This document shows positions 3,909-26,402 of a DNA stretch of 64,000 nt, in pieces. The stretch comes from Azospirillum brasilense. Its GTDB lineage: Bacteria > Pseudomonadota > Alphaproteobacteria > Azospirillales > Azospirillaceae. The notes beneath the pieces are model-generated. The model was not told the origin of the DNA. It made no database searches and worked only from the letters and a program-made list of their open reading frames with translations. Every line of letters begins with the position of its first letter. Position 1 is the stretch's first letter. The stretch covers positions 1-64,000 of the forward strand of contig NZ_QLKQ01000030.1 in the NCBI RefSeq assembly GCF_003349955.1. Direction: 5' to 3'. The translations under genes and the position numbers were made by a program.

Positions 3909-3915
3909 AAGGCGC

Positions 3916-5346: not shown

Positions 5347-5357
5347 GGCGGGATTCC

Positions 5358-7212: not shown

Positions 7213-7962
7213 TCAGACCGGAACGATGTCGGCCCCGCGTTCGGTGAAGGCGAGCCGGTAGCCGCTCTTCGCTAGAATCCCGGCGCCGAACAGGTCCCAG
7301 GTGGTGGCGCCGCCGGCACGGAACCGGCTGCGGAACTCCTCCTCCTTCGCCTCCTTCTCGCGCGAGACGCGGGCCACCTCGTCGAGATCGGCCAGCGGGA
7401 TCACCACCACGCCGTCATCGTCGCCGATGATCAGGTCGCCGGGCTCGACCCGGATTCCTCCCACCTCGACGGCCTGGGCGAGCGGGCCGAGCCGCGCCTT
7501 GTCGCCGCGCGACCGCAGGCTGATCCCGCGCGCGAAGACCGGAAGGTCCAGCTTGCGCAGCTCCGCGGCGTCGCGGACGGCACCGTCGATCACCACGCCG
7601 CCCAGACCGCGGGCGAGCGCCGCCGTGGCCATGGTGTCGCCGAAGGAGGCGCCGTCGACGAAGCCGCCCGCGGAATAGACGATCACGTCGCCGGGACGGG
7701 CGAAGGAGATGGCCGCATGGGCGGTCAGGTTGTCGCCCGGCTGCCCCTGGGCGGGAAAGGCCGGACCCAGGATGCGGAAGCCGGACCGCAACGGCTTGAT
7801 GGCGGAATCGAGCGCGCCGCGGCGGCCTTGCGCCTCGTGCGCGGTGGCGGCGGTCACGCCTTTGAAGGCCGCGATCTGGGCGGGGGTCGGACGGGGAAAG
7901 TCGAAGTCGGGTCGATTGGTGTCGGGTCGGCTGGTCATGCTCGGTCGGTCCTTCTCAGTCAC
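7213..7962 (-). CDS. RraA-family protein, probable 4-hydroxy-4-methyl-2-oxoglutarate/4-carboxy-4-hydroxy-2-oxoadipate-type aldolase
   Basis: RraA-fold aldolases cleave branched hydroxy-oxo-diacids to pyruvate plus a second oxo acid. The protein (249 aa from GTG 7962; 241 aa from ATG 7938) shows family hallmarks: TAATAHEAQGRRG near the N-terminus, PGDNLTAHAA, GGVVIDGAVRDAAEL (Arg-Asp for substrate and metal binding), and the PGDLIIGDDDGVVVIP segment. The GTG start overlaps the stop of the reductase gene. It is the last gene of the second importer operon and one of three RraA relatives within 12 kb, which supports a catabolic role rather than RNase E regulation. Confidence 0.85.
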   Translation of the reverse strand: MTEKDRPSMTSRPDTNRPDFDFPRPTPAQIAAFKGVTAATAHEAQGRRGALDSAIKPLRSGFRILGPAFPAQGQPGDNLTAHAAISFARPGDVIVYSAGGFVDGASFGDTMATAALARGLGGVVIDGAVRDAAELRKLDLPVFARGISLRSRGDKARLGPLAQAVEVGGIRVEPGDLIIGDDDGVVVIPLADLDEVARVSREKEAKEEEFRSRFRAGGATTWDLFGAGILAKSGYRLAFTERGADIVPV

Positions 7963-9073
7963 GGCCTTCGGGCGCGGTATCGCCGAAGGGGTCCAGTTGG
8001 AAAAAGGCGGGGTCCGGACGCGCCCCCCCGCTCTCGATGCGGCGCACGGCGTCGCGCACCCGCCGGTTGGCCCAGGCGTCGACGCCGGTGTCCCCGGCGC
8101 GGGCGAGGACCGGTCCGTAGATCTCCTCGACCTCGGTCCGCCGGCCCTTGAGGATGTCCTGCCCCATGGAGGGACGCTGGCCGGCGGCCTTGCCGGAGAC
8201 GGCGGAGGTCAGGAGCGCTTCCTCCACCCGGGCCAGCGCCGCGCGGTCGCCCTCCGCCGCGCGGGCGAACAGGGCGGCGGGCGTGCCGCCGATCCCCTCC
8301 AGCCGCAGGCCCAGCCGCTCGCCGATCAGGACGGCCTCCCCGGCCAGCCGGATGCCGAAGCGGCGCAGCAGCGGGTCGCGGTCCATCGCGTCGATCGGCA
8401 GGCCGGTCGCCGCCGACAGGCCGTTGCGCATGGCGTTGGCCGCCAGCTTCGACCAGCGTTCGCCGTTCAGGTTGCCGGTCACCGTCACGGAATCCACCTT
8501 GGCGATGAGGTCGCGCAGCGCCCCGATGCGCGGCGTCGTCCGCCCGTCGGGCTCGCCGATCCGGAAGACGGGGATGCCCGAACTGCCGCGCGACACCCGC
8601 CGCAGGATGCGTCCGGCGCCGTCGAGTTCGACCCCGATGCGCGCGGCGATCAGCCCGACGACGCGGCCCCCGCCGACGACCTCGGCGATCACCGGCTCGT
8701 TCAGGCCGTTCTGGGCCGAGACGACGAAGCCGCCAGGGGCCAGCCGGGGGCGCAGCAGCTCCGCCACCCGCCGGGTGTCCCAGGATTTGACGGCGACGAT
8801 GGCGACGTCGATGGGGCCGAGGTCGGCCAGCCGGTCCTCCGGCAGGATCGGGACGCGCACGGTCTCGTCCTCCTCCGGCCGGGCGCCGGTGATGGCGAGG
8901 CCGGAGCGGGCGACCGCCGCCACATGCTCCGCCCAGCCGTCGACCAGGGTCACGTCCTCCCCCTCCGCGAACAGGCGAGCGCCGATGTAGCCGCCGACGG
9001 CGCCGGCCCCCAGCACGGCGATGCGCGGGCGGTGCGGAGCGGCGGCCCCCGATCTTGCCGGAAGGTCCGTCAC
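7955..9073 (-). CDS. Ketopantoate reductase (PanE/ApbA)-family oxidoreductase
   Basis: This 372-aa cytoplasmic NAD(P)H-dependent 2-oxo/2-hydroxy acid reductase has the nucleotide-binding motif GAGAVGGYIGARL near residues 22-34, the VAIVAVKSWDT strand-loop and the C-terminal ApbA domain with KLAANAMRNGLSA. The start is GTG 9073, overlapping the stop of the binding-protein gene (GTGA). It sits between a transporter and an RraA-type aldolase, so it more likely reduces or oxidises a catabolic hydroxy/oxo acid than makes pantoate. The substrate is unknown. Confidence 0.87.
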   Translation of the reverse strand: MTDLPARSGAAAPHRPRIAVLGAGAVGGYIGARLFAEGEDVTLVDGWAEHVAAVARSGLAITGARPEEDETVRVPILPEDRLADLGPIDVAIVAVKSWDTRRVAELLRPRLAPGGFVVSAQNGLNEPVIAEVVGGGRVVGLIAARIGVELDGAGRILRRVSRGSSGIPVFRIGEPDGRTTPRIGALRDLIAKVDSVTVTGNLNGERWSKLAANAMRNGLSAATGLPIDAMDRDPLLRRFGIRLAGEAVLIGERLGLRLEGIGGTPAALFARAAEGDRAALARVEEALLTSAVSGKAAGQRPSMGQDILKGRRTEVEEIYGPVLARAGDTGVDAWANRRVRDAVRRIESGGARPDPAFFQLDPFGDTAPEGRD

Positions 9074-10674
9074 GCCCCGCCCTCCAGCCACAGGTTCTTC
9101 AGCGAGGAGAAGGCGGCGTCGGGCCGGTCCTCCAGCCCCTTGACCCGGCGGCTGTGCAGGGTGACGCGCTCCAGCTCGAACAGCGGGATGTTCGGCAGGT
9201 CGGTCATGGCGATGCGCTGCCAGGCGTGGAACGCCTCCGTCCGCTTGGCCGGATCGGATTCGCGCAGCGCCGTCTCGATCACCGCGTCCAGCTCGGGGTT
9301 GGAATACTGGGCGCCGTTGGTGTTCGGCACGCCCGGCGCGATGGAGCTGGTGGCGTAGAGCCGGTAGAGCCCCAGCGACGGGTCGATCATCGCCGAGAAC
9401 TGGCCGGAGCGGGTGTCGTAGTCGTAGTTGGTGTAGACCCGCTTGTAATAGGTCGGCAGGTCGGCGGCGCGCAGCTTCAGGTCGATGCCCACCGCCTTCA
9501 GGTTCTGGCGCAGGAACTCCGCGGTGTTCTGCTGGGACTCGGTGTCGTTGGAATAGTCGTGCCAGAGCGCGAAGCGGACGCCGTCGGCGCCGCGCTTGTA
9601 GCCCGCCTCGTCGAGCAGCCGCTCCGCCGCCGCGGGGTCGAAGGGATAGCCGGCCACGTCCTTGGTGTAGGCTTTCTGGTAATGCGGGATCGGGCCGGTC
9701 GCCGGGGTGCCGAAGCCGTACCAGGCGGCCTCGATCAGCCCCTTGCGGTCGATGGCGTGGGCGATGGCCCGGCGGACCCGCACATCGCCGGCGATCTTGG
9801 ATTTGACGTTGAATTCGAAGGTGAAGAAGGGCGACAGCCATTGATAGCCGGCGGTGGTCAGCGCCAGCTCGGGGTTGGCGCGCAGGCGGGCCGCGTCGGC
9901 CAGCGGGATCGGGTCGAAGGGGCCGTAGACCACCTCCCCGGTCTCGAAGGCCGCGGCGCGTGACGCGGCGTCGGGGATGATGCGGAAGATCAGGCGGTCC
10001 ACATGGGGCTTGCCGGCGTCCCAGTAGGTGGGATTGCGCTCGAAGGCGATGTATTCGCCGCGCTTCCACTCCACGAAGCGGAAGGGGCCGGTGCCGACCG
10101 GGTTGATGTTGCGCGGGTTGGTGCGGGGGTCGGTGTTCTCGTAGAGGTGGGCCGGAAGCACCTGCGACTCCGCGGCGGCCAGCGCGTTCAGGATGATCGC
10201 CGAGGGGCGGGACAGGCGCAAAACCGCCGTCGAAGCGTCCGGCGTCTCCACCGCCGTCACGTCGCCGAAGGTGGTGCGCCCACGCGGGTGGTGCTTCTTC
10301 CACAGCTCCAGAACGCTGTAGGCCACGTCCCGGGAGGTGAAGGGCGTGCCGTCGTGCCAGGTGACGCCCTTGCGCAGGTGGAAGGTGATCGACAGCTTGT
10401 CGGGCGACAGCTCGAACCGCTCCGCCAGGGCGGGGATCGGGTTCATCTGCTGATCGTAGCTCAACAGCCCGTCGTAGATGTTGGGCGACACCACGTTGAC
10501 GCTGAAGTGGTTGTTGACGGTGTTGGTGAGGATCGGCGGTTCCGGGTTGATGACCGCGATCAGCGTCCCCCCCTTCACCGGCCCCGCCGCGGCCAAGGCG
10601 CGTCCCGCCCCGGCGGCGAGGACGGAAGCTCCGAGGGTCAGGGCGAGGAAGGAGCGGCGTTCGATAGGGATCAC
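9070..10674 (-). CDS. Peptide-type ABC transporter solute-binding protein (SBP family 5)
   Basis: This 534-aa periplasmic receptor of the second importer starts at GTG 10674, giving MIPIERRSFLALTLGASVL followed by a small-residue stretch ending in ALAAAG, which reads as a Tat- or Sec-type signal. The SBP family 5 signature is present (RKGVTWHDGTPFTSRDVAYS, RRAIAHAIDRKGLIEAA). GTGA overlaps link it to the ATPase gene upstream and the reductase gene downstream. Here the receptor gene follows the permease and ATPase genes, unlike in operon 1. Confidence 0.92.
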   Translation of the reverse strand: MIPIERRSFLALTLGASVLAAGAGRALAAAGPVKGGTLIAVINPEPPILTNTVNNHFSVNVVSPNIYDGLLSYDQQMNPIPALAERFELSPDKLSITFHLRKGVTWHDGTPFTSRDVAYSVLELWKKHHPRGRTTFGDVTAVETPDASTAVLRLSRPSAIILNALAAAESQVLPAHLYENTDPRTNPRNINPVGTGPFRFVEWKRGEYIAFERNPTYWDAGKPHVDRLIFRIIPDAASRAAAFETGEVVYGPFDPIPLADAARLRANPELALTTAGYQWLSPFFTFEFNVKSKIAGDVRVRRAIAHAIDRKGLIEAAWYGFGTPATGPIPHYQKAYTKDVAGYPFDPAAAERLLDEAGYKRGADGVRFALWHDYSNDTESQQNTAEFLRQNLKAVGIDLKLRAADLPTYYKRVYTNYDYDTRSGQFSAMIDPSLGLYRLYATSSIAPGVPNTNGAQYSNPELDAVIETALRESDPAKRTEAFHAWQRIAMTDLPNIPLFELERVTLHSRRVKGLEDRPDAAFSSLKNLWLEGGA

Positions 10675-11687
10675 GGAAGTCTCCTCAGGGGACGGAAATT
10701 GTTGGCTTCGGTCGGATTCGTCTGGGCCGGATTCGTTTCGGCCGATGGCGCCGGGGCCAGATGGCAGGCGACGCGGCGGCCGTCGGCGGCGTCGCGCAGG
10801 GCGGGCGCCTCGCGCCGGCAGCGCTCGACGGCGAGCGGACAGCGGGTGTGGAAGGCGCAGCCCGGCGGCGGGGCGAAGGGGCTGGGCAGTTCGCCGGCCA
10901 GGACGGTCCTGGTCGCGGCACGGCCCGCGTCCGGGTTGGCGGCGGGGGCCGCGGCCATCAGCGCGCGGGTGTAGGGATGGGCGGGCTCGTCCACCACGTC
11001 GGACCAGTCGCCGATCTCGACGATCCGGCCGAGATACATCACGGCCACCCGGTCGGCCATGTGGCGGACGACGCCGATGTCGTGGCCGATGAACAGGTAG
11101 GCCAGCCCGTGCCGCTCCTGGAGATCGACCAGCAGGTTCAGCACCTGGGCCTGCAACGACACGTCGAGCGCCGAGACCGGCTCGTCGAGGACGACGACGT
11201 CGGGCCTGGGTGCTATGGCGCGGGCGATGGCCACGCGCTGCCTCTGCCCCCCGGAGAGCTGGTGCGGGAGGCGGTCGGCCAGCGCGCGGGCCAGCCCGAC
11301 GTCGTCCATCAGCGCCGCCACCCGCCGCGCCCGCTCCGCCGCATCGCGGACGGTGGGCAGCAGCGGCTCGGCGATGGCCCGCGCCACCGTGTAGCGCGGG
11401 TCGAGCGAGGCGGCGGGGTCCTGGAAGACCATCTGGACCCTGGCGGTGAAGGGCGCCGCCGCCCTCCCCCTCAGCCGCGTCACGTCGGTCCCGTCGAGGA
11501 GGATGCGGCCCGACGCCGGAGGGGTCAGGCGCATCACCGCCCGCGCCAGCGTGGATTTCCCGCAGCCGGACTCCCCGACCAGCCCCAGCGTCTCGCCGCG
11601 CCGCAGGGTGAGGTCCACCCCGTCCACCGCGAGGACGGTGCCGTTTCGCGTCCGGTGGGTGACGCGGAGCTTTTCGATGGTCAGCAC
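10671..11687 (-). CDS. Peptide-type ABC transporter ATP-binding protein, DppF-like
   Basis: This cytoplasmic ATPase has Walker A GESGCGKST, QMVFQDP, signature LSGGQRQR, Walker B VVVLDEP, and the oligopeptide C-terminal domain with CAFHTRCPLAVERC. GTG 11687 (VLTIEKLRV) gives 338 aa and a 7-nt overlap with the upstream ATPase gene. An ATG at 11717 would add ten arginine-rich residues and a longer overlap, so the GTG was preferred. It pairs with the DppD-like protein as the NBD heterodimer. Confidence 0.92.
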   Translation of the reverse strand: MLTIEKLRVTHRTRNGTVLAVDGVDLTLRRGETLGLVGESGCGKSTLARAVMRLTPPASGRILLDGTDVTRLRGRAAAPFTARVQMVFQDPAASLDPRYTVARAIAEPLLPTVRDAAERARRVAALMDDVGLARALADRLPHQLSGGQRQRVAIARAIAPRPDVVVLDEPVSALDVSLQAQVLNLLVDLQERHGLAYLFIGHDIGVVRHMADRVAVMYLGRIVEIGDWSDVVDEPAHPYTRALMAAAPAANPDAGRAATRTVLAGELPSPFAPPPGCAFHTRCPLAVERCRREAPALRDAADGRRVACHLAPAPSAETNPAQTNPTEANNFRPLRRLP

Positions 11688-12541
11688 GCGCCGCTCCCTT
11701 CTCCGCCAATCAGGCAAGGTGCCGAGGTGTCGGCGAGGCGCGGCCGTGGTCCCCTGCGCGTCCGGCGTCCCGGCCGCGCGGCCAGCAGGGCTCGGCCGTA
11801 GGGATGGCGGGGACCATCGAAGAAATCGCGGACGCCGCGGTCCTCCAGCAGACGCCCGTCGCGCATCAGCAGGACGCGGTCCGCCGCCTCGGCCACCACG
11901 CCCAGGTCGTGGGTGATGAGCAGAAGCGCCATGCCAAGCTCGTCCTTCAGGCGGATGAGAAGCTGGAGGATCTGCGCCTGGATGGTGACGTCGAGCGCCG
12001 TCGTCGGCTCGTCGGCGACCAGCGCGACCGGCGACGCGGCGAGCGCCAGGGCGATCACCACCCGCTGGCGCATCCCGCCGGACAGGCGGTGCGGGTACTC
12101 GGAGAAGCGGCGCCCCGGTTCGGGGATGCGCACCAGATCGAGCAGCTCCAGCGCGCGGGCGGCGGCGGCGCGGGCGCCGGTCCGCCCGTCGGCGCGCACC
12201 GCCTCGACGATCTGCTCGCCGATGGTCAGGACGGGGTTGAGCGCCGCCTGCGGGTCCTGAAAGACCATCGACACCGCGGGATGCCCGGCCAGCCGCCGCT
12301 CGCGGGGCGTCCGGCCGAGGATGTCCGCGCCGGCCAGAGTCACGCGGCCGGTGATCCGCGCCTCCGGCGGGGCCAGCCCGGCGATGGACAAGCCGCTGAC
12401 CGTCTTGCCGCTGCCGCTTTCCCCGACCAGCGCCGTCACCTCGCCCGCCGCCACGGTGAAGGAGAGGCCGTCCACCGCCTTGGCGCCCGCGAAGGCGATC
12501 GACAGGTCGCGCACCACGATCAATGGATTGTTCGCCTTCAT
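11681..12541 (-). CDS. Peptide-type ABC transporter ATP-binding protein, DppD-like
   Basis: The protein has 286 aa, with Walker A GESGSGKT near residue 38, SMVFQDPQAALNP, signature LSGGMRQR and Walker B VALVADEP. Its C-terminus is shorter than in classic DppD and lacks the long cysteine-rich extension: it stops shortly after DGPRHPYGRALLAA. The ATG at 12541 overlaps the permease stop (ATGA). Confidence 0.92.
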   Translation of the reverse strand: MKANNPLIVVRDLSIAFAGAKAVDGLSFTVAAGEVTALVGESGSGKTVSGLSIAGLAPPEARITGRVTLAGADILGRTPRERRLAGHPAVSMVFQDPQAALNPVLTIGEQIVEAVRADGRTGARAAAARALELLDLVRIPEPGRRFSEYPHRLSGGMRQRVVIALALAASPVALVADEPTTALDVTIQAQILQLLIRLKDELGMALLLITHDLGVVAEAADRVLLMRDGRLLEDRGVRDFFDGPRHPYGRALLAARPGRRTRRGPRPRLADTSAPCLIGGEGSGAC

Positions 12542-13368
12542 CGCGCCGCCCCCCGCGGGTCGAGCCGCTCCGACAGGCCGTTGCCCAGCAGGGTGAAGGC
12601 CATCACCGTGGCGAAGATGGCAAGGCCGGGCAGCGCCATCAGGTACCACAGCGTGCGCAGCAGGGGCCGCGCGTTGCCGATCATCGCCCCCCAGGACACG
12701 AGGTTCGGATCGCCGAGGCCGAGGAAGGCCAGCGCCGCCTCGACCAGCACGGCGTGGGCGACCACTGCGGCGATCATCGCCACCACGGGGGCGATGCCGT
12801 TGGGCAGCACATGGTTCAGCAGGATGTGGCCGTGGCCCAGCCCCATCGTCCGCGCCGCCAGCACCCAGTCGGCGTTGCGTATCCGCAGCACCTCCGCCCG
12901 CGTCAGCCGGGCGATCTCCGGCCAGGAGGTCAAGCCGATGGCGAGCATCACGCTGCCGATGGACGGCGCCAGCACGGCGACCAGCACCATCGACAGCAGG
13001 AAGGACGGCAGCGTCTGGACATAGTCGCACAGCCGCGACAGCAGATGGTCCGCCACCCCGCCGAAATAGCCCGCCACGGCGCCCAGCCCGACACCGATCA
13101 GCGTCGCCACCGCGGCGGCCCCGACGCCGACCGCCAGCGACACCCGCGCCCCGAACAGGAGCTGCGCCGCCACGTCCCGCCCGAGCTGGTCGGTGCCGAG
13201 CGGGAAGGCGCCGTCGGTCAGCGGCCACAGGCCGCGCGGCCCGACCATCGCCATGGGATCGCCCGGCCGCAGCAGGCCGGCCGCCGCCGCCAGCAGGGCG
13301 AGCAGCGCCACGCACAGCACCCCCAGCCGCAGCGTGGAAGGCGTGGAAAAGGAGAACCGTGCGCTCAC
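12538..13368 (-). CDS. Peptide-type ABC transporter permease, DppC-like
   Basis: This inner-membrane subunit of 276 aa starts at GTG 13368 (VSARFSFS), in a GTGA overlap with the first permease gene. Membrane segment 1 (LGVLCVALLALLAAAAGLL) is followed by the OppC-type motif LGTDQLGRDVAAQL and a permease core with the EAA-like loop ARTMGLGHGHILLNHVLPN. Confidence 0.92.
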   Translation of the reverse strand: MSARFSFSTPSTLRLGVLCVALLALLAAAAGLLRPGDPMAMVGPRGLWPLTDGAFPLGTDQLGRDVAAQLLFGARVSLAVGVGAAAVATLIGVGLGAVAGYFGGVADHLLSRLCDYVQTLPSFLLSMVLVAVLAPSIGSVMLAIGLTSWPEIARLTRAEVLRIRNADWVLAARTMGLGHGHILLNHVLPNGIAPVVAMIAAVVAHAVLVEAALAFLGLGDPNLVSWGAMIGNARPLLRTLWYLMALPGLAIFATVMAFTLLGNGLSERLDPRGAAR

Positions 13369-14342
13369 GACGTCACCTCGATCCGCAGGTCGAGCGCGGC
13401 GTAGGAGACGTCGACGAGGATGCCCATGACGATCACCAGAAGCGAATTGCAGAGGAAGAGGCTGAGCAGCAGGTTCACGTCGCGGTCGGCCACCGCCTCG
13501 AAGGCGAGGCGGCCGAGGCCGGGCCAGGAGAACACCGTCTCCACCACCACCGCCCCGCCCAGCATCGAGCCGAGCTTCAGGCCGCTCAGCGTCACCACGG
13601 GGAGCAGCGCGTTGCGCAGGATGTGCCGCAGGGTCACCCGCGTTTCGGAAATGCCCTTGGCCCGCGCGGTGCGCACGAAGTCCAGCCGGCTCGTCTCGAT
13701 CACCGCGGCCCGCGTCACCCGCGCGTAGAGGGCGGCGTAGCCCAGCCCCAGCGTGGCGGCGGGAAGCACGAGATGGGCCGCGACGTCCACCGCGTGCGGC
13801 CAGCCGGCGCCCGGCGCGCCCACCGTGGCGTAGCCGCCGATGGGCAGCCAGCGCAGGTGCACGGCGAACAGCACGATGCCGACCAGCCCGATCCAGAAGG
13901 ACGGCATGGCGAAGATCAGGGAGGACAGGACGGACACCGTCCGGTCGAAGCGGCCCCCCGGACGGCGCCCGGCCAGGACCCCCGCCGCCACGCCGACAGC
14001 CACCGCCGCCAGAACCGCCACGGTGACGAGCAGCGCCGTCGCCGGCAGCCGCTCCAGCACGAGGTCGGCGATGGGCCGGCTGTAGCGGAAGGAGAAGCCC
14101 AGGTCGAACCGCAGGAGCTGGGACAGATAGGCCTGGAACTGGTCGAGCGCCGAGCGGTCCAGCCCGAACCGCGCGCGCAGATCGGCCATCTGTTCCACCG
14201 TGGCGATCCCGCTCTCGCCGGCCATCACATCGACCAGATCGCCGGGGACCGCCTTCAGCAGCAGGAAGTTCACGACGATCATGAGGACGACCATCGGCGC
14301 GGCCGCGAGCGTCCGCCGCAGCATGAAAGCGAATAACGTCAT
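13365..14342 (-). CDS. Peptide-type ABC transporter permease, DppB-like
   Basis: This is the first gene of operon 2: 325 aa from ATG 14342 (MTLFAFMLRRTLAAAPMV). An ATG 10 codons upstream has no membrane-like character and was not chosen. The protein has a membrane anchor, the OppB-type VPGDLVDVMAG region, RFGLDRSALDQFQAYL, and the EAA loop ARAKGISETRVTLRHILRN. It is transcribed divergently from the dehydratase gene at 14615. Confidence 0.92.
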   Translation of the reverse strand: MTLFAFMLRRTLAAAPMVVLMIVVNFLLLKAVPGDLVDVMAGESGIATVEQMADLRARFGLDRSALDQFQAYLSQLLRFDLGFSFRYSRPIADLVLERLPATALLVTVAVLAAVAVGVAAGVLAGRRPGGRFDRTVSVLSSLIFAMPSFWIGLVGIVLFAVHLRWLPIGGYATVGAPGAGWPHAVDVAAHLVLPAATLGLGYAALYARVTRAAVIETSRLDFVRTARAKGISETRVTLRHILRNALLPVVTLSGLKLGSMLGGAVVVETVFSWPGLGRLAFEAVADRDVNLLLSLFLCNSLLVIVMGILVDVSYAALDLRIEVTS

Positions 14343-14614
14343 GGTTGCAGCTCTGGGGGTGCTTTTGCACATTTCAGGATTTGGGAATTGGGCGGCTGGG
14401 CCGCCTCTTGATTTGTAATTTACCTCTTGATTCCTACTGTGTCTATAGGCAATAGTCTCTCGCAGATGCAGGGCGGGCTTGTTGTTTCATCGCCCGAAGA
14501 AAAACCACCGTCTTTTCTGAAAAGTCCGGCGGCACTCGCTGCCGGTCGAAGTCATCTCATTGACTGCGCGTGGCCGCTCCTTCAGCGGCGGCGCTTCATA
14601 TCCTGGGAGTTCTC
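14343..14614. promoter_or_regulatory. Divergent intergenic region between the importer and dehydratase operons
   Basis: This 272-bp AT-richer stretch must hold the promoters of both operons. A short inverted repeat, CTTTT-CTG-AAAAG, lies at 14512-14524 and could be an operator. A GGGAG ribosome-binding site at 14605-14609 precedes the ATG at 14615. No regulator gene lies in either operon, so any controlling factor is encoded elsewhere. Confidence 0.5.
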
Positions 14615-15808
14615 ATGAAGATCGCGAGGGTTGAGAGCTTTTTCTTCAATCCCGGCCGCGCCAAGAATCTTCTTTTCGTTCGTATCGAAACGGAAAGCGG
14701 AATTTACGGCTGGGGCGAGGGCTACGTCACCGCGGGGAAGGAGAAGGTGGTCGCCGCCTATGTGGACGCCATCGCGCCGCTTCTGATCGGGCGCGAGATC
14801 TGGAACATCCGCCAGCTCGCCCAGACGCTACTCGACGATTTCTCGATCCGCCGGACCTCCGTCGACTTCCTGTGCGCGCTGAGCGCGGTCGAGATCGCGT
14901 CCTGGGACATCGTCGGCAAGCGCGCCGGCCTGCCGGTGCACAAGCTGCTGGGCGGCGCCGTCCGCGAGAAGATCCGGGTCTACGCCAACGGCTGGTGGTT
15001 CGGCGCGTCCTCCATCGACGACACCGCGAACCGCGCCGCCGCGGTGGTGGCGCAGGGCTACGACGCGCTGAAATGGGACCCGATCCCCGGCCCGTGGCGC
15101 AACTACGTCGATCCGAAGGACCTCGACCACGCCGTGGAGAATGTCCGGGCGGTGCGCGAGGCGGTCGGCCCGAACGTGGAACTGCTCATCGACGGCCACC
15201 GCCGCCTGTCGCCGAACCACGCGATCCGCCTGATCGAGCGCCTGCGCGACTTCGGCATCGCCTGGTACGAGGAGCCCTGCCCGCCGGAAAACCTCGATCT
15301 GACGGCGGAGGTGCGGCGCACGACCAACGTCCCCATCGTGTCGGGCGAGGCGCTCTACACCAAGGAGCAGTATCTGCCGCTGTTCGAGAAGCGCGCCGCC
15401 GACATCATCAATCCGGACATCAGCGCGGTCGGCGGCATCCTCGCCATGCTCGACATCGCCGCACTGGCGCAGCCGCATTCCATCGCGGTCAGCCCGCACA
15501 ACTTCAACAGCCCCATCGTCGGCCTGGCCGCGACGGTCCACCTGTCGGCGCTGGTCACCAACTTCACCATCGCCGAGCTGTTCGTGAACCTCGTCGAGCC
15601 GACGCGGGAGCTGGCCTCGCAGGGGCTGACCATCGCCGACGGCTACGTCGACATCCCCGAGACTCCGGGCCTCGGCGTCGATCTCGACGTCGAGGTGCTG
15701 CGTCGGCACCCCTATCAACCGCTGTCGGGCAAGGGGCTGCGCGATCACCGCGACGAGTTCCCCCGCCGCGGTCCCCCCTCCACCTTCAAAACCGCCGCGA
15801 CCGCGTGA
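14615..15808 (+). CDS. Enolase-superfamily sugar-acid dehydratase, D-galactonate dehydratase-like
   Basis: This 397-aa mandelate racemase/muconate lactonizing family enzyme is predicted to dehydrate an acid sugar to a 2-keto-3-deoxy acid using Mg2+. Metal ligands read as Asp193, Glu219 and Glu245, with catalytic His195 (DGH) and His295 (SPHNFNSP). This set matches the known DgoD arrangement with a constant offset of 10 residues. KWDPIP near 153-158 resembles the KFDP segment of that subgroup. The ATG at 14615 follows a GGGAG site. It leads an operon with RraA aldolases and a TctABC transporter. The exact substrate is unassigned. Confidence 0.85.
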   Translation: MKIARVESFFFNPGRAKNLLFVRIETESGIYGWGEGYVTAGKEKVVAAYVDAIAPLLIGREIWNIRQLAQTLLDDFSIRRTSVDFLCALSAVEIASWDIVGKRAGLPVHKLLGGAVREKIRVYANGWWFGASSIDDTANRAAAVVAQGYDALKWDPIPGPWRNYVDPKDLDHAVENVRAVREAVGPNVELLIDGHRRLSPNHAIRLIERLRDFGIAWYEEPCPPENLDLTAEVRRTTNVPIVSGEALYTKEQYLPLFEKRAADIINPDISAVGGILAMLDIAALAQPHSIAVSPHNFNSPIVGLAATVHLSALVTNFTIAELFVNLVEPTRELASQGLTIADGYVDIPETPGLGVDLDVEVLRRHPYQPLSGKGLRDHRDEFPRRGPPSTFKTAATA

Positions 15809-15832
15809 CGCGGGCTTGGGAGCCAATCCGAC

Positions 15833-16507
15833 ATGACCAGCATCCGCACCGATTTCCCCCGCCCGACCCCCGAACAGGTCGCGGCCTTCGCGACGATCGG
15901 CGCCGCCACCGTCCATGAGGCGCTGGGCCGCCGCGGCGCCGTGGATTCGGCGATCAAGCCGATCTGGCCCGGCCTGCGCATCGTCGGGGCCGCCTTCCCG
16001 CTGAAGACACAGCCGGGCGACAACCTGACCCTCCACGCCGCGATGAAGCTGGCCCGTCCGGGCGACGTCCTCGTGGTGGACGCCGGCGACTACCCCGAGC
16101 AGGGCTCGTTCGGCGACGTGATGGCGACCTCCGCCCAGTCGCTGGGGCTCGCCGGTCTGGTGACCAACGGCGGCGTCCGCGACGCGGCGGCGATCCGCGA
16201 CATCGGCTTCCCGATCTTCTCCCGCGCCATCTCCATCAAGGGGACGGTGAAGGCGACGCTGGGGCCGATCGCCCAGCCCATCGTCGTGGGCGGCGTCACG
16301 GTCCATCCGGGCGACCTGATCGTCGGCGACGACGACGGCCTCGTCGTCGTTCCGCTGGACGAGGTCGAGGCCGTCCTGGCCGCGTCCCGCGCCCGGCTGG
16401 AGAAGGAGGAGCGGCTGCGCGCCGACCTCCAGTCCGGCAAGACCACCTGGGACATCGGCAACTACGACGCGCTCCTGGCCCAGACCGGCCAGAGCCTGCA
16501 AGCCTGA
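15833..16507 (+). CDS. RraA-family aldolase-like protein
   Basis: At 224 aa this has a typical size for HMG/CHA aldolases, which split 4-hydroxy-2-oxo diacids to pyruvate. Visible features are ATVHEALGRRGAVDSAI, QPGDNLTLHAA, GLVTNGGVRDAAAI (Arg-Asp pair) and PGDLIVGDDDGLVVVP. It strongly resembles the RraA protein at 7213-7962 and is probably a paralogue with a related substrate. It lies 24 nt after the dehydratase gene. Confidence 0.87.
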   Translation: MTSIRTDFPRPTPEQVAAFATIGAATVHEALGRRGAVDSAIKPIWPGLRIVGAAFPLKTQPGDNLTLHAAMKLARPGDVLVVDAGDYPEQGSFGDVMATSAQSLGLAGLVTNGGVRDAAAIRDIGFPIFSRAISIKGTVKATLGPIAQPIVVGGVTVHPGDLIVGDDDGLVVVPLDEVEAVLAASRARLEKEERLRADLQSGKTTWDIGNYDALLAQTGQSLQA

Positions 16508-16524
16508 ACGGGAGGATCCGAACG

Positions 16525-17136
16525 ATGCCTGTGAAGACGACGACGGCTTCCGCCCCCGCCGCCGCCCCTGCCGCCGAGAGCGTGTCCTGGCTGCGCCTGC
16601 CGGCACCGCCCCGGGACGACCGCACCGACGCCCTGTTCGAGCATTCGGTGTCCGTCCGCAGCTACATCCGCAACACCCAGTCGGTGCTGGCGCACATCCC
16701 GGCGCTGGTGCTGGCGCAGGAAGCGCTCAGCCGGTCGGTGACCGTCGATTTCACGGACGGGCTGACGGGCCGCGAACGCGAGCTGATCGCGCTCGCCGTC
16801 AGCGTCCAGAACCGTTGCGAGCCCTGCGTCTGGGGGCACGCCGGCAAGCTGCGCGAGATCACCGGCGATCCCCGCTTCGTCGGGCTGGTCGAGGTGAACT
16901 ACCGCCGCGCCGATCTGACGCCGCGCGAACGGGCCATCGTCGATTACGCGGTGCTGATCACCGAGCGTCCCTGGACCATCGAACCGGCGGACCTCGACGG
17001 GCTGCGCGCGGCGGGCCTGTCGGAGCGGGAGATTTTGGAGGCCGCGGCCATCGCCGCCTATTTCAACTTCTCCAACCGGGTGAACAGCGCGCTGGGCGTC
17101 CATCCCAATCCCGAACCCTTCGACGCCAACCGCTGA
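16525..17136 (+). CDS. AhpD/carboxymuconolactone decarboxylase-like protein (peroxidase-related)
   Basis: This 203-aa protein has the AhpD-type redox motif Cys98-x-x-Cys101 with His105 (CEPCVWGH), preceded by TGRERELIALAVSVQNR, the usual helix of the family. The N-terminal 25 residues are alanine-rich and disordered-looking. It may be a thiol peroxidase or reductase, or a decarboxylase/lactone-type enzyme. Within a catabolic operon a role in the pathway or in protecting it from peroxides is inference. It lies 17 nt after the RraA gene. Confidence 0.8.
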   Translation: MPVKTTTASAPAAAPAAESVSWLRLPAPPRDDRTDALFEHSVSVRSYIRNTQSVLAHIPALVLAQEALSRSVTVDFTDGLTGRERELIALAVSVQNRCEPCVWGHAGKLREITGDPRFVGLVEVNYRRADLTPRERAIVDYAVLITERPWTIEPADLDGLRAAGLSEREILEAAAIAAYFNFSNRVNSALGVHPNPEPFDANR

Positions 17137-17155
17137 CGAAAGACGAAGGACCGTC

Positions 17156-18172
17156 ATGGCCCGAATTCGGTTTCCCACGCTCGACCGGCGCTCCTTCCTG
17201 ACCGCCGCCCTGACCGCGACGGCCGCGGCCACCCTGTCCGGGGTCGCCGCCCCGGCGGCGCGGGCCGCGTCCCCGGCCTCCTGGCCGACGCAGCCGGTGC
17301 GGCTGGTCGTTCCCTTCCCGCCCGGCGGTGGCACCGACCTGCTGGCCCGCGCGCTGGCCGACCGGCTGTCGAAGCTGCATCCGCAGCCCTTCGTGGTCGA
17401 GAACCGGCCCGGCGCCGGTGCGGCGGTCGGCACCGACTACGTCGCCAAGTCCACCGACGGCCACACCTTCCTGTTCACGTCGTCGAACCACGTGACGGTG
17501 CCGGCGCTGTCCACGGCGGTGCGCTACGACATCTTCAAGGACTTCAAATCGGTGGTCCTGGTCGCCGATCAGGCCAGCGTGCTCGCCGTCGATCCGGAGC
17601 TGCCCGGCAAGGACGCCGCGGAGGTCCTCGCCCACATCAAGGCCAACCCCGGCAAATACAATTACGGCACGGCGGGCATCGGGTCGGGCCAGCATCTCAG
17701 CACCGCCTTCCTCCAGCAGCTCACCGGAATCGACATCGTCCATGTGCCGCTGAAGGGCCAGGGCGAGATCATCTCGGAACTGCTGGGCAAGCGCATCCAG
17801 GCGGGTTTCCTGGTGCTGTCCACCGCCCTGCCCTACTTCCGGTCCGGCCAGATCCGGCCCCTGGCCGTGGCGCTGCCGGAGCGCAGCCCGTTCGCGCCGG
17901 AGATCCCGACCTTCGGCGAGGCCGGGCTGAAGGACTTCGCCGCCCGCTCCTGGCTCGGCCTGCTGGCGCCGGCGGCGACTCCGGTGGCGGTCGTGGACCG
18001 GCTGCACGGCGACATCGTGGGCTTCGCCAAGGACAAGGACTACGTCGCCATCACCGAAAAGGCGGGGATGGCCCTGGTCAACGAAGGGCCCGCGGCCTTC
18101 GACGCGGAGATCGCCGCCGGCTACGCGCAGTGGAAGCGGGTGATCCAGACCGCCGGCATCAAGCCGAGCTGA
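17156..18172 (+). CDS. Tripartite tricarboxylate transporter receptor (Bug/TctC family)
   Basis: This is a periplasmic receptor for organic acids (338 aa). The N-terminus has LDRRSFLTAAL and an alanine-rich stretch ending in ARA, a Tat-type signal with cleavage near residue 37. The Bug signature follows: WPTQPVRLVVPFPPGGGTDLLARALADRLS in overlapping parts, ENRPGAGAAVG, and YGTAGIGSGQHLS. It works with the TctB and TctA proteins encoded 1.7 kb downstream in the same operon. Carboxylate uptake agrees with the sugar-acid-type enzymes beside it. Confidence 0.93.
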   Translation: MARIRFPTLDRRSFLTAALTATAAATLSGVAAPAARAASPASWPTQPVRLVVPFPPGGGTDLLARALADRLSKLHPQPFVVENRPGAGAAVGTDYVAKSTDGHTFLFTSSNHVTVPALSTAVRYDIFKDFKSVVLVADQASVLAVDPELPGKDAAEVLAHIKANPGKYNYGTAGIGSGQHLSTAFLQQLTGIDIVHVPLKGQGEIISELLGKRIQAGFLVLSTALPYFRSGQIRPLAVALPERSPFAPEIPTFGEAGLKDFAARSWLGLLAPAATPVAVVDRLHGDIVGFAKDKDYVAITEKAGMALVNEGPAAFDAEIAAGYAQWKRVIQTAGIKPS

Positions 18173-18181
18173 GGGGGAGCG

Positions 18182-18964
18182 ATGACCGATCCGACAATCG
18201 CCGGGGAGCTGGCCGCCTATTCCGACCGGCTGCTCGGCCTGCTCGACCCCGCCATCGTCCGCCGCGTCGCCATCGACCGGCCCGACGCCGCGGTCGTCGA
18301 GCGTTATCTCGCCTTGCCCGACCTGACCTCCCAGGTCGCCGACATCCTCGACGGGCTGGGCTACGACAGCGCGGTTCCCCGGCGGCGCCTGCCGCCGCTG
18401 GAGGGGGGACGGCGCGTGGCGGGTCCCGCCGTCACCGCGCGGCAGATTCCGGCGGCGCGCGCGCCGGGATTCTCCATCGCCTCCGGCCACCGGCCGAGGG
18501 GCGGCGGCATCGACCAGATCACCCTGACCCGGCGCGGCGACGTCTTCGTCATCGACGCCGGCGGGGTGGCCGAGGCGTCGAGCTTCGGCGGCATCCTGGC
18601 CACGGCGTCGATCGCCGCCGGTCTGGCCGGCGTCGTCGTCGACGGGGCGATGCGCGACAGCGCCAGCATCAAGGCGGGTGGCCTCGCCGTCTGGTCGGCG
18701 GGCGTCACGCCGCGCACCGGCAAGCACCGGCTGGAGCTGGCGGAGTTCAACGGGCCGGTCACCATCGCCGGCGTCCAGGTTCATCCCGGCGATCTGGTGC
18801 TGGGCGACGACGACGGGCTGATCTTCGTGCCCGCCGCGCTGATCCTGGAGGTCATCGAACGGGCGGAGGCGGCGGCCGGCCAGGAAAGCGCGCTGCTCGG
18901 CGCCCTGTCCTCCGGCGGATCGGCGCGCGAGGCCGCGGCGATCCTGCACCCCAGCAAATGGTGA
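18182..18964 (+). CDS. RraA-family protein, divergent long form
   Basis: This is the third RraA relative in the locus (260 aa). It has a longer N-terminal part (about residues 1-70) and is less like the other two. The fold markers remain: GDVFVIDAGGVAEASSFG, GLAGVVVDGAMRDSASI, PGDLVLGDDDGLIFVP. The canonical GDN loop before the HAA segment is replaced by a HRPRGGGIDQITL segment, so its substrate probably differs. It lies 9 nt after the TctC gene. Confidence 0.8.
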   Translation: MTDPTIAGELAAYSDRLLGLLDPAIVRRVAIDRPDAAVVERYLALPDLTSQVADILDGLGYDSAVPRRRLPPLEGGRRVAGPAVTARQIPAARAPGFSIASGHRPRGGGIDQITLTRRGDVFVIDAGGVAEASSFGGILATASIAAGLAGVVVDGAMRDSASIKAGGLAVWSAGVTPRTGKHRLELAEFNGPVTIAGVQVHPGDLVLGDDDGLIFVPAALILEVIERAEAAAGQESALLGALSSGGSAREAAAILHPSKW

Positions 18965-18969
18965 GCGGC

Positions 18970-19920
18970 ATGGTCAACACCTCCGGCACCCCTATCCCCC
19001 GCATCGGGATCATCGGCTTCGGCGAGGTGGGATCGAGCTTCGCGCGCGGGCTGATCGCCGCCGGGGCGGGCGACATCGTCGCCTACGACGCGCCGCCCGG
19101 CCCGACCGAGCGCCGCCTCGCCCTGCGCCGGGCGGACGAGTTGGGGCTCGCCCTCGCCTTCGATCCGGCGGCGCTCGGCGACCGGGAGATCCTGTTCTCC
19201 AGCGTGACGCAGGACGCGGCGGACAACGCCGCCGCCACGGTGGCTCCGCACGTGGCGGCGGACGCGATCTACGCCGACGTGAATTCACTGTCGCCGGAGG
19301 TGAAGGCCGCGGTCGGCAAGCGGCTGGACGGCGTTCCCGGACGCTTCGTGGACGTCGCGATCATGGGCGCGCCGGCATCCGACCTGCACCGCGTGCCGCT
19401 TCTGGCGGCGGGCCGGCGGGCGGAGGAGCTTGCGGCGCGGCTGGCCCCCTTCGGGACCGGCATCCGCGTCGTCGGGCCGGAGCCGGGCCGGGCGGCGGCG
19501 GTGAAGATCCTGAGGAGCATCCTCACCAAAGGGCTGGAAACCCTGCTGGTCGAGGCGCTGACCGCGGCGCGGCGCCACGATGTGGAGGCGGAGGTTCTGG
19601 GCGGCTTCCTGGAGCTGTTCGAGCGGCGCCCCGCGCTGGATTTCGTCGAATTCCTGGTGCGCTCCGACACGGTCCATTCCGGGCGCCGCGCGCTGGAGGC
19701 CGCGCAGTCGGCGGATACCGTCGCCGCGGTCGGGCTGGAGCCGGCGATGAGCCGCGCGGTGGCGGCCCGCCTGTCGCAGCTCGCCGGCCTCGGCCTCAAG
19801 GAACGGCTGGGCGGGGTGCCGCCCGCAACCCTGTCCGACGCGGTGACCCTGTTCGACGAGGCGCTCGGGCGCCGGCATCCCACGGAGCAGCGACATGGCA
19901 TCGAACATCCGCAGAACTGA
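18970..19920 (+). CDS. NAD(P)-dependent oxidoreductase with DUF1932 C-terminal domain (6PGDH-like)
   Basis: This 316-aa beta-hydroxyacid-dehydrogenase-like protein has the dinucleotide motif GIIGFGEVGSSFARGL at the N-terminus, VDVAIMGAPASD near residue 120, and an active-site-type Lys in KILRSILTKGLE. The C-terminal all-helical DUF1932 domain follows. It probably oxidises or reduces a hydroxy acid of the pathway. ATG 18970 was chosen; GTG 18961 and ATG 18958 are alternatives that overlap the previous stop. The 3' end overlaps the TctB gene by 26 nt. Confidence 0.85.
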   Translation: MVNTSGTPIPRIGIIGFGEVGSSFARGLIAAGAGDIVAYDAPPGPTERRLALRRADELGLALAFDPAALGDREILFSSVTQDAADNAAATVAPHVAADAIYADVNSLSPEVKAAVGKRLDGVPGRFVDVAIMGAPASDLHRVPLLAAGRRAEELAARLAPFGTGIRVVGPEPGRAAAVKILRSILTKGLETLLVEALTAARRHDVEAEVLGGFLELFERRPALDFVEFLVRSDTVHSGRRALEAAQSADTVAAVGLEPAMSRAVAARLSQLAGLGLKERLGGVPPATLSDAVTLFDEALGRRHPTEQRHGIEHPQN

Positions 19921-20374
19921 GGATCTGGCCTCCGGCCTCGCCCTGGCCGCCCTGGGTGCGGCGGCGGGCGCCTTCATCGTCGCCAGCTACCCTCTGGGCA
20001 CGGCGCGCCAGCTCGGTCCCGGGGCGATGCCCGCCCTGGTGGCGTTGATCCTGGTCGTATTGGGCGGCGTCATCGCCGTCCGGGGTCTGTGGGAACAGGG
20101 CCACGGCGCAGGGGATGGCGCAGGGCTCGACCTGCGCGCCGCGCTGCGGCCCGCCGGGCTGATCCTGGGGGCCATCCTGCTGTTCGGCGGGCTGGTGGAT
20201 TGGCTGGGCGTGGTTCCGGCCAGCGCCATCGCGGTGATCGGCTCGGCGCTGGCCAGCCGGCGGACGCGCAAGCGGGAGATCGCCGCGCTGGCGGCGGTTC
20301 TCGCCGTCGCGGTGCCGGCCCTGTTCGTCGGGATTCTCGGCATGCCGCTGAGGATCTGGCCGACGCTGCATTAA
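19895..20374 (+). CDS. Tripartite tricarboxylate transporter small membrane subunit TctB
   Basis: This 159-aa protein has four predicted membrane segments (about residues 13-32, 43-63, 83-105 and 130-152) and a short loop with QLGPGAMPALVALIL, typical of TctB. It overlaps the preceding reductase gene by 26 nt and precedes tctA by 20 nt, the usual TctBA order. Confidence 0.9.
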   Translation: MASNIRRTEDLASGLALAALGAAAGAFIVASYPLGTARQLGPGAMPALVALILVVLGGVIAVRGLWEQGHGAGDGAGLDLRAALRPAGLILGAILLFGGLVDWLGVVPASAIAVIGSALASRRTRKREIAALAAVLAVAVPALFVGILGMPLRIWPTLH

Positions 20375-20394
20375 AGAGAGGATCGACCGGCGTC

Positions 20395-21897
20395 ATGATG
20401 GATTCGCTCGGGGGGATCGCGCACGGGCTGTCGATCGCGGCCTCTCCCGCCAACCTGCTCTATTGCTTGGCCGGGGCGCTGCTCGGCACCTTCGTGGGCG
20501 TCCTGCCCGGCGTGGGGCCGCTGCTGACCATCGCGCTCCTGCTGCCCTTCACCTTCTCGCTGGAGCCGACCGGCGCGCTGATCATGCTGGCCGGCATCTA
20601 TTACGGCGCCCAGTATGGCGGATCGACCACGTCGATCCTGCTCAACATGCCGGGCGAGACCTCGTCGGTGGTGACCTGCATCGACGGGCACGCCATGGCG
20701 CGCCAGGGGCGCGGCGGCCCGGCCCTGGCGGTGGCCGCCATCGGCTCCTTCGTCGCGGGCACGCTGTCGACCGGGATCGTCGCCTTCTTCGCGCCGGTCC
20801 TGGCCGGCGTCGCCATCCGCTTCGGTCCGGCCGACTATTTCTCGCTGATGGTCCTCGGGCTGGTCGGGGCCATCGTTCTGGCGCAGGGGTCCTTCGTCAA
20901 GGCGCTGGCGATGATCGTCCTCGGGCTTCTCTTCGGCCTCGTCGGCACCGACGTCAACAGCGGGGAGCAGCGCCTGACCTTCGGCATCCAGGCTTTGGCG
21001 GACGGCATCGGCTTCGTCCCGGTGGCGCTGGGCGTCTTCGGCATCGGCGAGATCATCCGCATCCTGATCGGGCAGGAGCGCGACGGCGGGCGGGTCATCC
21101 CGCACGGCTCCCTGATGCCGAGCCGGCAGGAGTTGCGCGCTTCCTCCGGCGCCATCGCGCGGGGATCGGTCATCGGCTCGGCGCTGGGGCTGCTGCCCGG
21201 CGGCGGCGCGGCGCTGGCCGCCTTCGCCTCCTACACCGTGGAAAAGAAGCTGGCGCGCGACCCCTCGCGCTTCGGGCGCGGCGCCATCGAGGGGGTGGCG
21301 GGGCCGGAATCGGCCAACAACGCGGCGGCGCAGACCTCCTTCATTCCGCTGCTCACGCTCGGGCTGCCGTCCAACGCGGTCATGGCGCTGATGATCGGCG
21401 CGCTGATGCTGCATGGCATCACCCCCGGCCCGCGCATCATGCAGGCCGAGCCGGACCTGTTCTGGGGCGTGGTCGCCAGCATGTGGATCGGCAACGCCAT
21501 GCTGATCGTGCTGAACCTGCCGCTGGTCGGGCTGTGGGTGCGGCTGCTGCGCGTGCCCTACCGCTTCCTCTACCCGACCATCGTGCTGGTCAGCTGCATC
21601 GGCGTCTACGGCGTGTCGAACAGCGCCTTCGACCTCGTGACGACGGCCGTCTTCGGGCTTCTCGGCTGGGTCCTGCAGTCCCTGCGCTTCGAGCCGGCGC
21701 CGCTGCTCCTGGGATTCGTGCTGGGGCCGATGATGGAGGAGAATTTGCGGCGCGCCATGATCCTGTCGCGCGGCGATCCGACCGTCTTCCTGCGTGAGCC
21801 GATCAGCCTCGCGCTGCTGGTCCTGACCGGCCTGCTGCTGGCCGCCATCATTCTCCCCACCGTCCGCCGGAACCGCGAGCGCGTGTTCGCGGAATGA
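20395..21897 (+). CDS. Tripartite tricarboxylate transporter large permease TctA
   Basis: This 500-aa polytopic permease has the TctA signature GVLPGVGPLLTIALLLP near residues 40-55 and its inverted-repeat partner SALGLLPGGGAALAAF near 265. YYGAQYGGSTTSILLNMPGE and GPESANNAAAQTSFIPLLTLGLPSN are hallmark family motifs. The start at 20395 is followed by a second in-frame ATG at 20398; the AAAGAGAG site lies slightly far upstream. It closes the operon. Confidence 0.94.
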   Translation: MMDSLGGIAHGLSIAASPANLLYCLAGALLGTFVGVLPGVGPLLTIALLLPFTFSLEPTGALIMLAGIYYGAQYGGSTTSILLNMPGETSSVVTCIDGHAMARQGRGGPALAVAAIGSFVAGTLSTGIVAFFAPVLAGVAIRFGPADYFSLMVLGLVGAIVLAQGSFVKALAMIVLGLLFGLVGTDVNSGEQRLTFGIQALADGIGFVPVALGVFGIGEIIRILIGQERDGGRVIPHGSLMPSRQELRASSGAIARGSVIGSALGLLPGGGAALAAFASYTVEKKLARDPSRFGRGAIEGVAGPESANNAAAQTSFIPLLTLGLPSNAVMALMIGALMLHGITPGPRIMQAEPDLFWGVVASMWIGNAMLIVLNLPLVGLWVRLLRVPYRFLYPTIVLVSCIGVYGVSNSAFDLVTTAVFGLLGWVLQSLRFEPAPLLLGFVLGPMMEENLRRAMILSRGDPTVFLREPISLALLVLTGLLLAAIILPTVRRNRERVFAE

Positions 21898-23113: not shown

Positions 23114-23138
23114 CGCGCGGCCGGACGGGAGGCGCGCC

Positions 23139-24793: not shown

Positions 24794-24821
24794 CGCTTTC
24801 CCGAACCGGAGTGCCTCAACC

Positions 24822-26366: not shown

Positions 26367-26402
26367 TCTTCCTCTCCCATTTCCGCCATCCGGGGAACCG
26401 CC

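Follow-up and report, generated by a model that had tools for sequence, protein, structure and literature searches.

What does a bacterial locus do when it combines three RraA-family proteins with two importers and a putative acid dehydratase? Such a locus lies in a 64-kb stretch of Azospirillum brasilense DNA (contig NZ_QLKQ01000030.1, positions 1 to 64,000; hereafter the window), where open reading frame calls and domain searches placed 15 genes in two divergent operons. This is the content listed in the initial annotation: three RraA proteins, two importers, a DgoD-like dehydratase and an AhpD-like protein. We propose, with a probability of about 0.5, that the two operons form a single catabolic unit, mobile by horizontal transfer, that breaks down a polyhydroxy organic acid, probably dicarboxylic or branched. 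Of this proposal, the solid part comprises gene content, active-site residues and strict co-conservation. The locus had also been described as catabolic and uncharacterised, and this description stands; a full-text search of open-licence papers found no published account of the cluster. Below, MRMLE denotes the dehydratase-like enzyme of the MR/MLE family; RraA1 is encoded in the operon of the peptide-class ABC importer, and RraA2 and RraA3 in the divergent operon.

Is the gene set conserved elsewhere? We scanned one genome per species (84,980 species) with RraA3 and obtained at least 80 loci. Among the 80 listed, nine belonged to the RraA3 subfamily (51–64% identity) and were read in detail, and 71 (29–42%) served as controls only. 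Two Alcaligenes-family loci found through MRMLE and a Shinella plasmid brought the total to 12 species-level loci. Close Azospirillum strains are not among these relatives, and L094 and L095 (apparently duplicates of the L011 and L010 genomes) and L106 (close to L104) were not counted. For nine genomes all RraA matches were tallied, and those inside the cluster alone were used. All counts refer to the stretches read, mostly 10 kb on each side of RraA3 or MRMLE, and RraA2 of the relatives was named by similarity and by its position beside MRMLE. MRMLE, RraA2 and RraA3 occur together in 12/12 loci, spread over Alpha-, Beta- and Gammaproteobacteria. The neighbourhood search that the initial annotation had suggested returned a consistent set of partners, and these were found in 0/71 control loci (stretches of 3–21 kb) at identities of at least 40% for MRMLE, 50% for RraA2 and 45% for the DUF1932 oxidoreductase (at least 35% for the Alcaligenes DUF1932 query). 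At the thresholds used, AhpD, DppB, PanE, LysR, ADH, E1 and RraA4 were likewise found in none of the 71 control loci, which did contain TctC (11/71) and TctA (2/71). A sister MR/MLE subfamily (45–50% identity) also adjoins TctC, and no relative of these RraA proteins stood beside it in the eight loci read (8 of 11 genomes fetched, one stretch ending close to a contig end).

The other members of the set are retained to different degrees. The DUF1932 gene is present in 11/12 loci, the exception being Symbiopectobacterium with its second PanE-like gene; TctC is also present in 11/12, the exception being Shinella, where an SsuA-type ABC system adjoins. AhpD follows with 8/12, TctA with 6/12, the peptide-class ABC importer with 3/12 and PanE with 2/12. 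The enzymes are conserved and the importers are not. Eight of the 12 loci have a LysR gene homologous to that of one of them (L015), Shinella having an annotated LysR besides, and five have a Zn-dependent dehydrogenase. In three loci (L012, L013 and L016) the cluster is adjoined, in differing gene orders, by a TIGR03186-type homodimeric 2-oxoacid dehydrogenase E1; the E1 proteins of L012 and L016 pass the TIGR03186 cut-off, and that of L013 is assigned by similarity only. This feature is not shared by the host genome, whose best match scores 172.6 bits against a cut-off of 1408.

Pathway-type RraA genes number three or four in eight loci; there are two each in Azospirillum doebereinerae, A. 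agricola and Pseudothauera. In Polaromonas, the third RraA is short and passes the RNase-E-regulator model NF006875; it was left out of the pathway-type count. In the host assembly, three of seven RraA-like genes fall in the locus; under uniform placement of seven, the chance that three lie within 11.6 kb is p ~0.0004, and chance clustering is untenable because the arrangement is conserved in unrelated genomes. On the Shinella sumterensis plasmid (L104, 18001–27861), four RraA genes stand in one run, the fourth annotated as a hypothetical protein, and the same run holds a GlcD-like FAD oxidase and a BisC-family S/N-oxide reductase.

The unit looks rare and accessory. RraA3 and MRMLE are carried by the same 5/45 Azospirillum genomes. 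In larger samples, scored for just the few top candidates of each genome, RraA3 was found in two of 398 genomes of the phylum (the host and G518) and MRMLE in the host only. In the sample of the class (385 genomes), which was searched for RraA3, this protein was found in the host only. G518 was rejected as a further carrier, its RraA being only 35% identical and without partner genes. In the family of Alcaligenes, a close form of MRMLE is present in 4/200 genomes.

Are the two operons one unit or two? In Ancylobacter tetraedralis, both are adjacent and partly fused: the genes for the importer, its solute-binding protein, PanE and RraA1 run on one strand into TctC-RraA3-DUF1932-TctBA, with MRMLE-RraA2-AhpD divergent (62–78% identity, TctB 39%). 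In Candidatus Symbiopectobacterium, the set without DUF1932 is shuffled in order but stays together. Identities of these two loci to the window range over 55–78%, except for TctB (39 and 46%) and the second PanE-like genes (40 and 43%). Because the operons co-occur at such identities across different classes, the comparison favours a single mobile catabolic unit that would have been transferred together and would share a function. An importer for peptides or opines that merely happens to adjoin a hydroxy-acid operon would explain why the peptide-class importer was not found in 9/12 relatives and PanE in 10/12; the continuous strand in Ancylobacter and the interleaving of the importer, PanE and RraA1 genes with the rest in Symbiopectobacterium speak against two unrelated operons, and we hold this to be unlikely. 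Such unrelatedness, which the initial annotation had named as fatal to its own proposal, is contradicted by the joint occurrence in these two bacteria. The two operons probably serve one function, to which the peptide importer and PanE are optional additions because most relatives lack them in the stretches read.

Do all three RraA proteins act as aldolases? RraA2 passes the CHA aldolase model NF006731 (223 bits, cut-off 179) and falls below the stricter TIGR02798 ligK_PcmE (205 against 304.5); RraA1 and RraA3 are under both cut-offs. Compared with the HMG/CHA aldolase 3NOJ, to which it is 46.0% identical, RraA2 agrees at 12/13 tabulated positions, retaining E36, R40, N71, H75, G101, D102, R123, D124, T145, K147, R195 and E199 (3NOJ numbering). 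Its D102/R123/D124/E199 are kept in the window and nine other loci aligned (three of the 12 relatives were not tabulated). RraA1 (38% identity to 3NOJ) retains E36, R40, N71, H75, G101, D102, R123, D124, K147 and E199, with T145 and R195 changed; in Symbiopectobacterium RraA1 a Lys aligns at position 199 (Ancylobacter RraA1 was not tabulated). Asp-102 we take to be a functional position of this aldolase. PMC5065237 gives Arg-123 as essential and Asp-124 and Glu-199 as metal-binding in the HMG/CHA aldolase.

RraA3 departs from this pattern. It retains G101, R123, D124 and E199, differs at positions 36, 40, 71, 75, 145, 147 and 195, and has Gly at the Asp-102 position in 25/25 aligned sequences. 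In its own numbering, G137-X20-R158-D159 and E235 are kept together with an invariant C-terminal Trp, and the third residue after the Asp is N, S, T or A in 25/25 sequences, never acidic. RraA-type aldolases are marked by D-X20-R-D or G-X20-R-D-X2-E/D, and RraA3 has neither motif in any of the 25 sequences. The subfamily (25 aligned rows of ~260 residues, 46–66% identity to the window protein) has invariants of its own, namely D54, D111, D120, S133, D154, K181 and W260. RraA3 is more likely altered than dead, because two of three acidic residues and these strong invariants are kept. The initial annotation had treated all the RraA proteins as aldolases. RraA1 and RraA2 of the window both keep D102/R123/D124/E199; in view of RraA3, "three aldolases" is not established for the locus.

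A tree of the RraA proteins groups RraA3 in one clade (96/95) and the RraA1 proteins of Ancylobacter, Symbiopectobacterium and the window in a second (97/100). RraA4, a fourth type from Shinella and three Burkholderiales, makes up a third clade (97/100); the Polaromonas short RraA and one paralogue of the host sit on long branches. The retention of both RraA2 and RraA3 in 12/12 loci argues that they do different jobs. We consider it possible, though less likely than not, that the RraA family here supplies successive, chemically different steps, with RraA2 as a pyruvate aldolase and RraA3 (together with RraA1 or RraA4) as a variant at the metal site that decarboxylates, dehydrates or shares mixed-subunit active sites with RraA2. 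Could the proteins instead be RNase E regulators rather than enzymes, as the family name RraA and the missing Asp-102 match of RraA3 might suggest? All three fall below the cut-offs of the regulator models NF006875, TIGR01935 and TIGR02998 (58, 61 and 57 bits against 136 for NF006875), RraA2 and RraA3 stand amid catabolic genes in every one of the 12 loci, and RraA2 has the aldolase residues that were compared; we regard a regulatory role as very improbable.

Does RraA2 belong to an aromatic pathway? The public annotation of a sister copy names it a CHA/HMG aldolase, in line with its NF006731 score and its agreement with 3NOJ, and it could in principle serve a ring-cleavage side route for diacids of the protocatechuate or gallate type. 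The cluster nevertheless has no ring-cleavage dioxygenase, hydratase or tautomerase, no lig/gal pathway genes surround RraA2, and the TIGR02798 cut-off is not reached. The host also has, on contig C116 (L108, 2945–8958), a row of LigB-, amidohydrolase-, PrpF-, RraA- and PIG-L-family genes adjoined by a GFO/IDH/MocA-family dehydrogenase, a set of genes typical of operons for the 4,5-cleavage of protocatechuate/gallate. It is the LigK of this lig-type operon, not RraA2, that groups with 3NOJ (100/100), being 65.7% identical to the 3NOJ fragment. RraA2 was thereby rejected as the protocatechuate-type aldolase of the host, and the aromatic side route as a whole is improbable. The branched diacid named as substrate in the initial annotation fares no better: it was a guess from annotation only, and the host has the separate lig-type operon with its own LigK.

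What reaction could precede the aldolase? The nearest families of MRMLE are the D-gluconate/D-galactonate dehydratases, its best models being NF040790 (278 bits, cut-off 750) and NF010624 (250 bits, cut-off 311), so that the match to this DgoD-like branch is under cut-off. K153, D155, D193-x-H195, E219/E220, E245, D268 and H295 are invariant in 11/11 aligned orthologues. The pattern expected of acid-sugar dehydratases consists of an Asp-x-His, Glu at two metal positions and a pair of Asp and His, and MRMLE has both the metal ligands and the Asp-x-His and His-Asp acid-base residues of these members of the enolase superfamily. We infer that MRMLE is a candidate acid-sugar-dehydratase-like enzyme.

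What route would these proteins form? The acid would be taken up by TctABC, by the peptide-class ABC importer or by both. MRMLE, judging from its family and invariant residues, would act on the acid at its 2,3-diol, and loss of water there would yield a 2-oxo-3-deoxy acid. RraA2, whose residues point to a Mg-dependent class II pyruvate aldolase, would cleave the resulting 4-hydroxy-2-oxo acid into pyruvate and an aldehyde or oxo acid. The DUF1932 dehydrogenase, with PanE where present, would catalyse the redox step, either reduction of the carbonyl product or oxidation of a hydroxy intermediate. RraA3 may provide a second, non-redundant lyase step (decarboxylation or dehydration) or modulate RraA2. 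Of the succession of dehydration, redox step and retro-aldol cleavage suggested initially, the first and last fit the residues of the dehydratase and RraA2, but an aldolase role for all three RraA proteins is not established. Ancylobacter also carries a GarL-like HpcH/HpaI aldolase (140 bits against a cut-off of 393, family level only); this aldolase and the TIGR03186-type E1 of three loci agree with a 2-oxo-acid product.

The order resembles the glucarate/galactarate route, in which GudD or GarD is followed by GarL and then GarR. Here, too, we would have a dehydratase, a class II pyruvate aldolase, a 6PGDH-superfamily reductase and a carboxylate importer, but each slot is filled by another family. 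A canonical glucarate dehydratase was looked for in the host and discarded, the sole match being MRMLE itself (35 against 828.7 bits; galactarate dehydratase was not searched). There is a real chance that RraA3 has a new activity. As described in PMC8563752, the RraA-family protein FlDet converts 2-keto-3-deoxy-glucarate into alpha-ketoglutaric semialdehyde as a dehydratase/decarboxylase, a precedent in sugar-acid catabolism for RraA chemistry beyond aldol cleavage. The setting given there is an alginate pathway with an alpha-ketoglutaric semialdehyde dehydrogenase. Because an RraA-family protein does such chemistry, dehydration or decarboxylation by RraA3 is conceivable by analogy. Accessory clusters that mix MR/MLE enzymes and tripartite tricarboxylate transporters in the same proteobacterial classes appear in AMDase neighbourhoods, according to PMC4996985, in which RraA is no search term; no AMDase was seen in the present cluster.

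Several observations weigh against this reading. (i) An aldarate route should lead on to glycerate kinase and aldehyde dehydrogenase, neither of which is encoded in the cluster of the window. (ii) MRMLE falls below the NCBIfam equivalog cut-offs of the D-galactonate, D-gluconate and D-mannonate dehydratases. (iii) PanE and AhpD, not found in 10/12 and 4/12 relatives, have no clear place in the route, and importer types vary among relatives, so that transport says little of the substrate. (iv) Over 55 locus pairs, the distances of MRMLE show only a weak correlation with those of RraA3 (Spearman 0.23), the values being 0.45 for RraA2-RraA3, 0.78 for MRMLE-RraA2 and 0.76 for RraA3-DUF1932 (36 pairs); the halves of the unit may have partly separate histories, as if two sub-modules had combined. 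(v) RraA2 sequences are not joined as one clade in the tree and fall into two groups, one of the window, Ancylobacter and Symbiopectobacterium and the other of the remainder with a Shinella paralogue.

Might the acid carry sulfur? Downstream of TctA, at 22112–27260 on the forward strand, the window encodes a taurine-type binding protein, ABC genes, a choline-sulfatase and TauD, of which the binding protein, sulfatase and TauD are above NCBIfam cut-offs; these genes make up a sulfur-source region. Ancylobacter has an SfnB-like oxidoreductase gene (L008, 4220–5500; 361 bits against a cut-off of 431) within the importer operon, between the importer ATPase and binding-protein genes, with Sulf_transp, rhodanese and NMT1 genes downstream, and Shinella has its BisC-family S/N-oxide reductase inside the cluster and an SsuA-like ABC system beside it. 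A sulfur-limitation island that degrades a sulfur-bearing (or S/N-oxide) hydroxy acid and then releases the sulfur would bring these genes together. However, no sulfur gene is common to all loci, and none was seen in the flanks read of A. doebereinerae, A. agricola, Alcaligenes, Polaromonas and a Burkholderiales metagenome-assembled genome, where not every open reading frame was scanned. The core has no desulfonating enzyme, the SfnB, BisC and SsuA scores are below cut-off, and the taurine genes of the window look like a self-contained system. Organosulfur scavenging is in our view rather unlikely.

If the RraA family does supply successive, chemically different steps, RraA3 would represent a new enzyme activity, and the pathway would be new and serve a natural hydroxy acid. 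The cluster suggests that bacteria of soil and plants use an organic acid that has so far escaped notice. Annotations of RraA-like genes often read RNase regulator, methyltransferase or CHA aldolase, and a conserved, apparently mobile set in which a dehydratase is accompanied by two or more distinct RraA paralogues is a tractable system for the functions of the wider RraA family. Being small, the unit lends itself to deletion in Azospirillum, one operon at a time. In all, the interpretation given in the initial annotation is partly supported.

Gene order and nearly all boundaries (Table 1) match those annotated for a sister copy, which A. argentinense MTCC4035 carries on its plasmid p2 (NZ_CP032323). 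The nearest named matches of the DUF1932 protein are 94–97% identical, which places the host close to A. argentinense/A. brasilense, and RraA3 is 96–97% identical to copies on sister plasmids.

Table 1. Genes and intergenic region of the two divergent operons, with positions in the 64-kb window.
Feature	Position	Strand	Domains, models and remarks
RraA1, RraA/HMG-aldolase family	7213-7962	-	PF03737; start codon uncertain, sister gene annotated shorter
PanE/ApbA (ketopantoate reductase-family) oxidoreductase	7955-9073	-	PF02558/PF08546; TIGR00745
Family-5 solute-binding protein	9070-10674	-	PF00496
ABC ATPase, DppF-type	10671-11687	-	PF00005, PF08352
ABC ATPase, DppD-type	11681-12541	-	PF00005
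DppC-type permease	12538-13368	-	PF00528; 68% identity to Symbiopectobacterium copy
DppB-type permease, peptide-class ABC importer	13365-14342	-	PF00528/PF19300; sister annotation
Intergenic region between divergent operons	14343-14614		conserved block TGATTTGTAATTTACCTCTTGATTCCTACT
MRMLE, MR/MLE (enolase superfamily) acid-sugar-dehydratase-like enzyme	14615-15808	+	PF13378/PF02746
RraA2, LigK-like class II pyruvate aldolase candidate	15833-16507	+	PF03737; NF006731
AhpD/CMD-family peroxidase-related protein with CxxC	16525-17136	+	PF02627; TIGR01926
TctC solute receptor	17156-18172	+	PF03401
RraA3, distinct 260-aa RraA subfamily	18182-18964	+	PF03737
DUF1932/6PGDH-superfamily NAD(P)-dependent oxidoreductase	18958-19920	+	PF09130/PF03807
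TctB small permease subunit	19895-20374	+	PF07331
TctA large permease subunit	20395-21897	+	PF01970

What had been called two different 2-hydroxyacid reductases are indeed two distinct oxidoreductases, for which that label is loose: one is a PanE/ApbA homologue that passes the general model TIGR00745 (162.5 bits, cut-off 141.35), the other a DUF1932 protein of the 6PGDH superfamily. No NCBIfam model scores the latter above cut-off. Among solved structures it comes closest to 4ezb, 3qsg and 1i36, which either lack characterisation or owe their names to similarity, and no characterised relative was found. The AhpD-like protein passes TIGR01926 (133 against 81.8) and has its CxxC. The tripartite tricarboxylate transporter is complete, with TctA, TctB and TctC all encoded. 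For the family-5 binding protein, the best solved relatives include YliB (1uqw) and AgaA (6hlx); the comparison fixed no ligand, the matches spanning glutathione-type, dipeptide, heme, nickel and opine binders.

Is the locus regulated from within? The initial annotation saw no regulator, and this holds as far as can be seen: the called genes fill the stretch, and none is annotated in the sister cluster, whose gene table is incomplete. The LysR that adjoins the cluster in relatives has a single match at E 1e-40 or better in the host, 36% identical and on another contig. Within the intergenic region, the block TGATTTGTAATTTACCTCTTGATTCCTACT is kept in 4/4 close Azospirillum copies and not in Ancylobacter. 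Two TTGATT copies lie 13 bases apart in this block, the first differing by one base in copy L096; the pair is a possible promoter or operator.

Directly beyond RraA1, the reverse strand of the window (971–6965) encodes a second peptide-class ABC importer, with an ATPase, two permeases and a family-5 binding protein (5358–6965). An amidase gene (3919–5346) lies within this set, and the same arrangement is found on A. argentinense p2. The second importer and amidase may extend the locus to amide-linked substrates. Elsewhere in the host, on contig C109 (L001/L109, 7297–9936), another RraA gene adjoins a TctA 61% identical to that of the window, possibly a second RraA-Tct catabolic pair.

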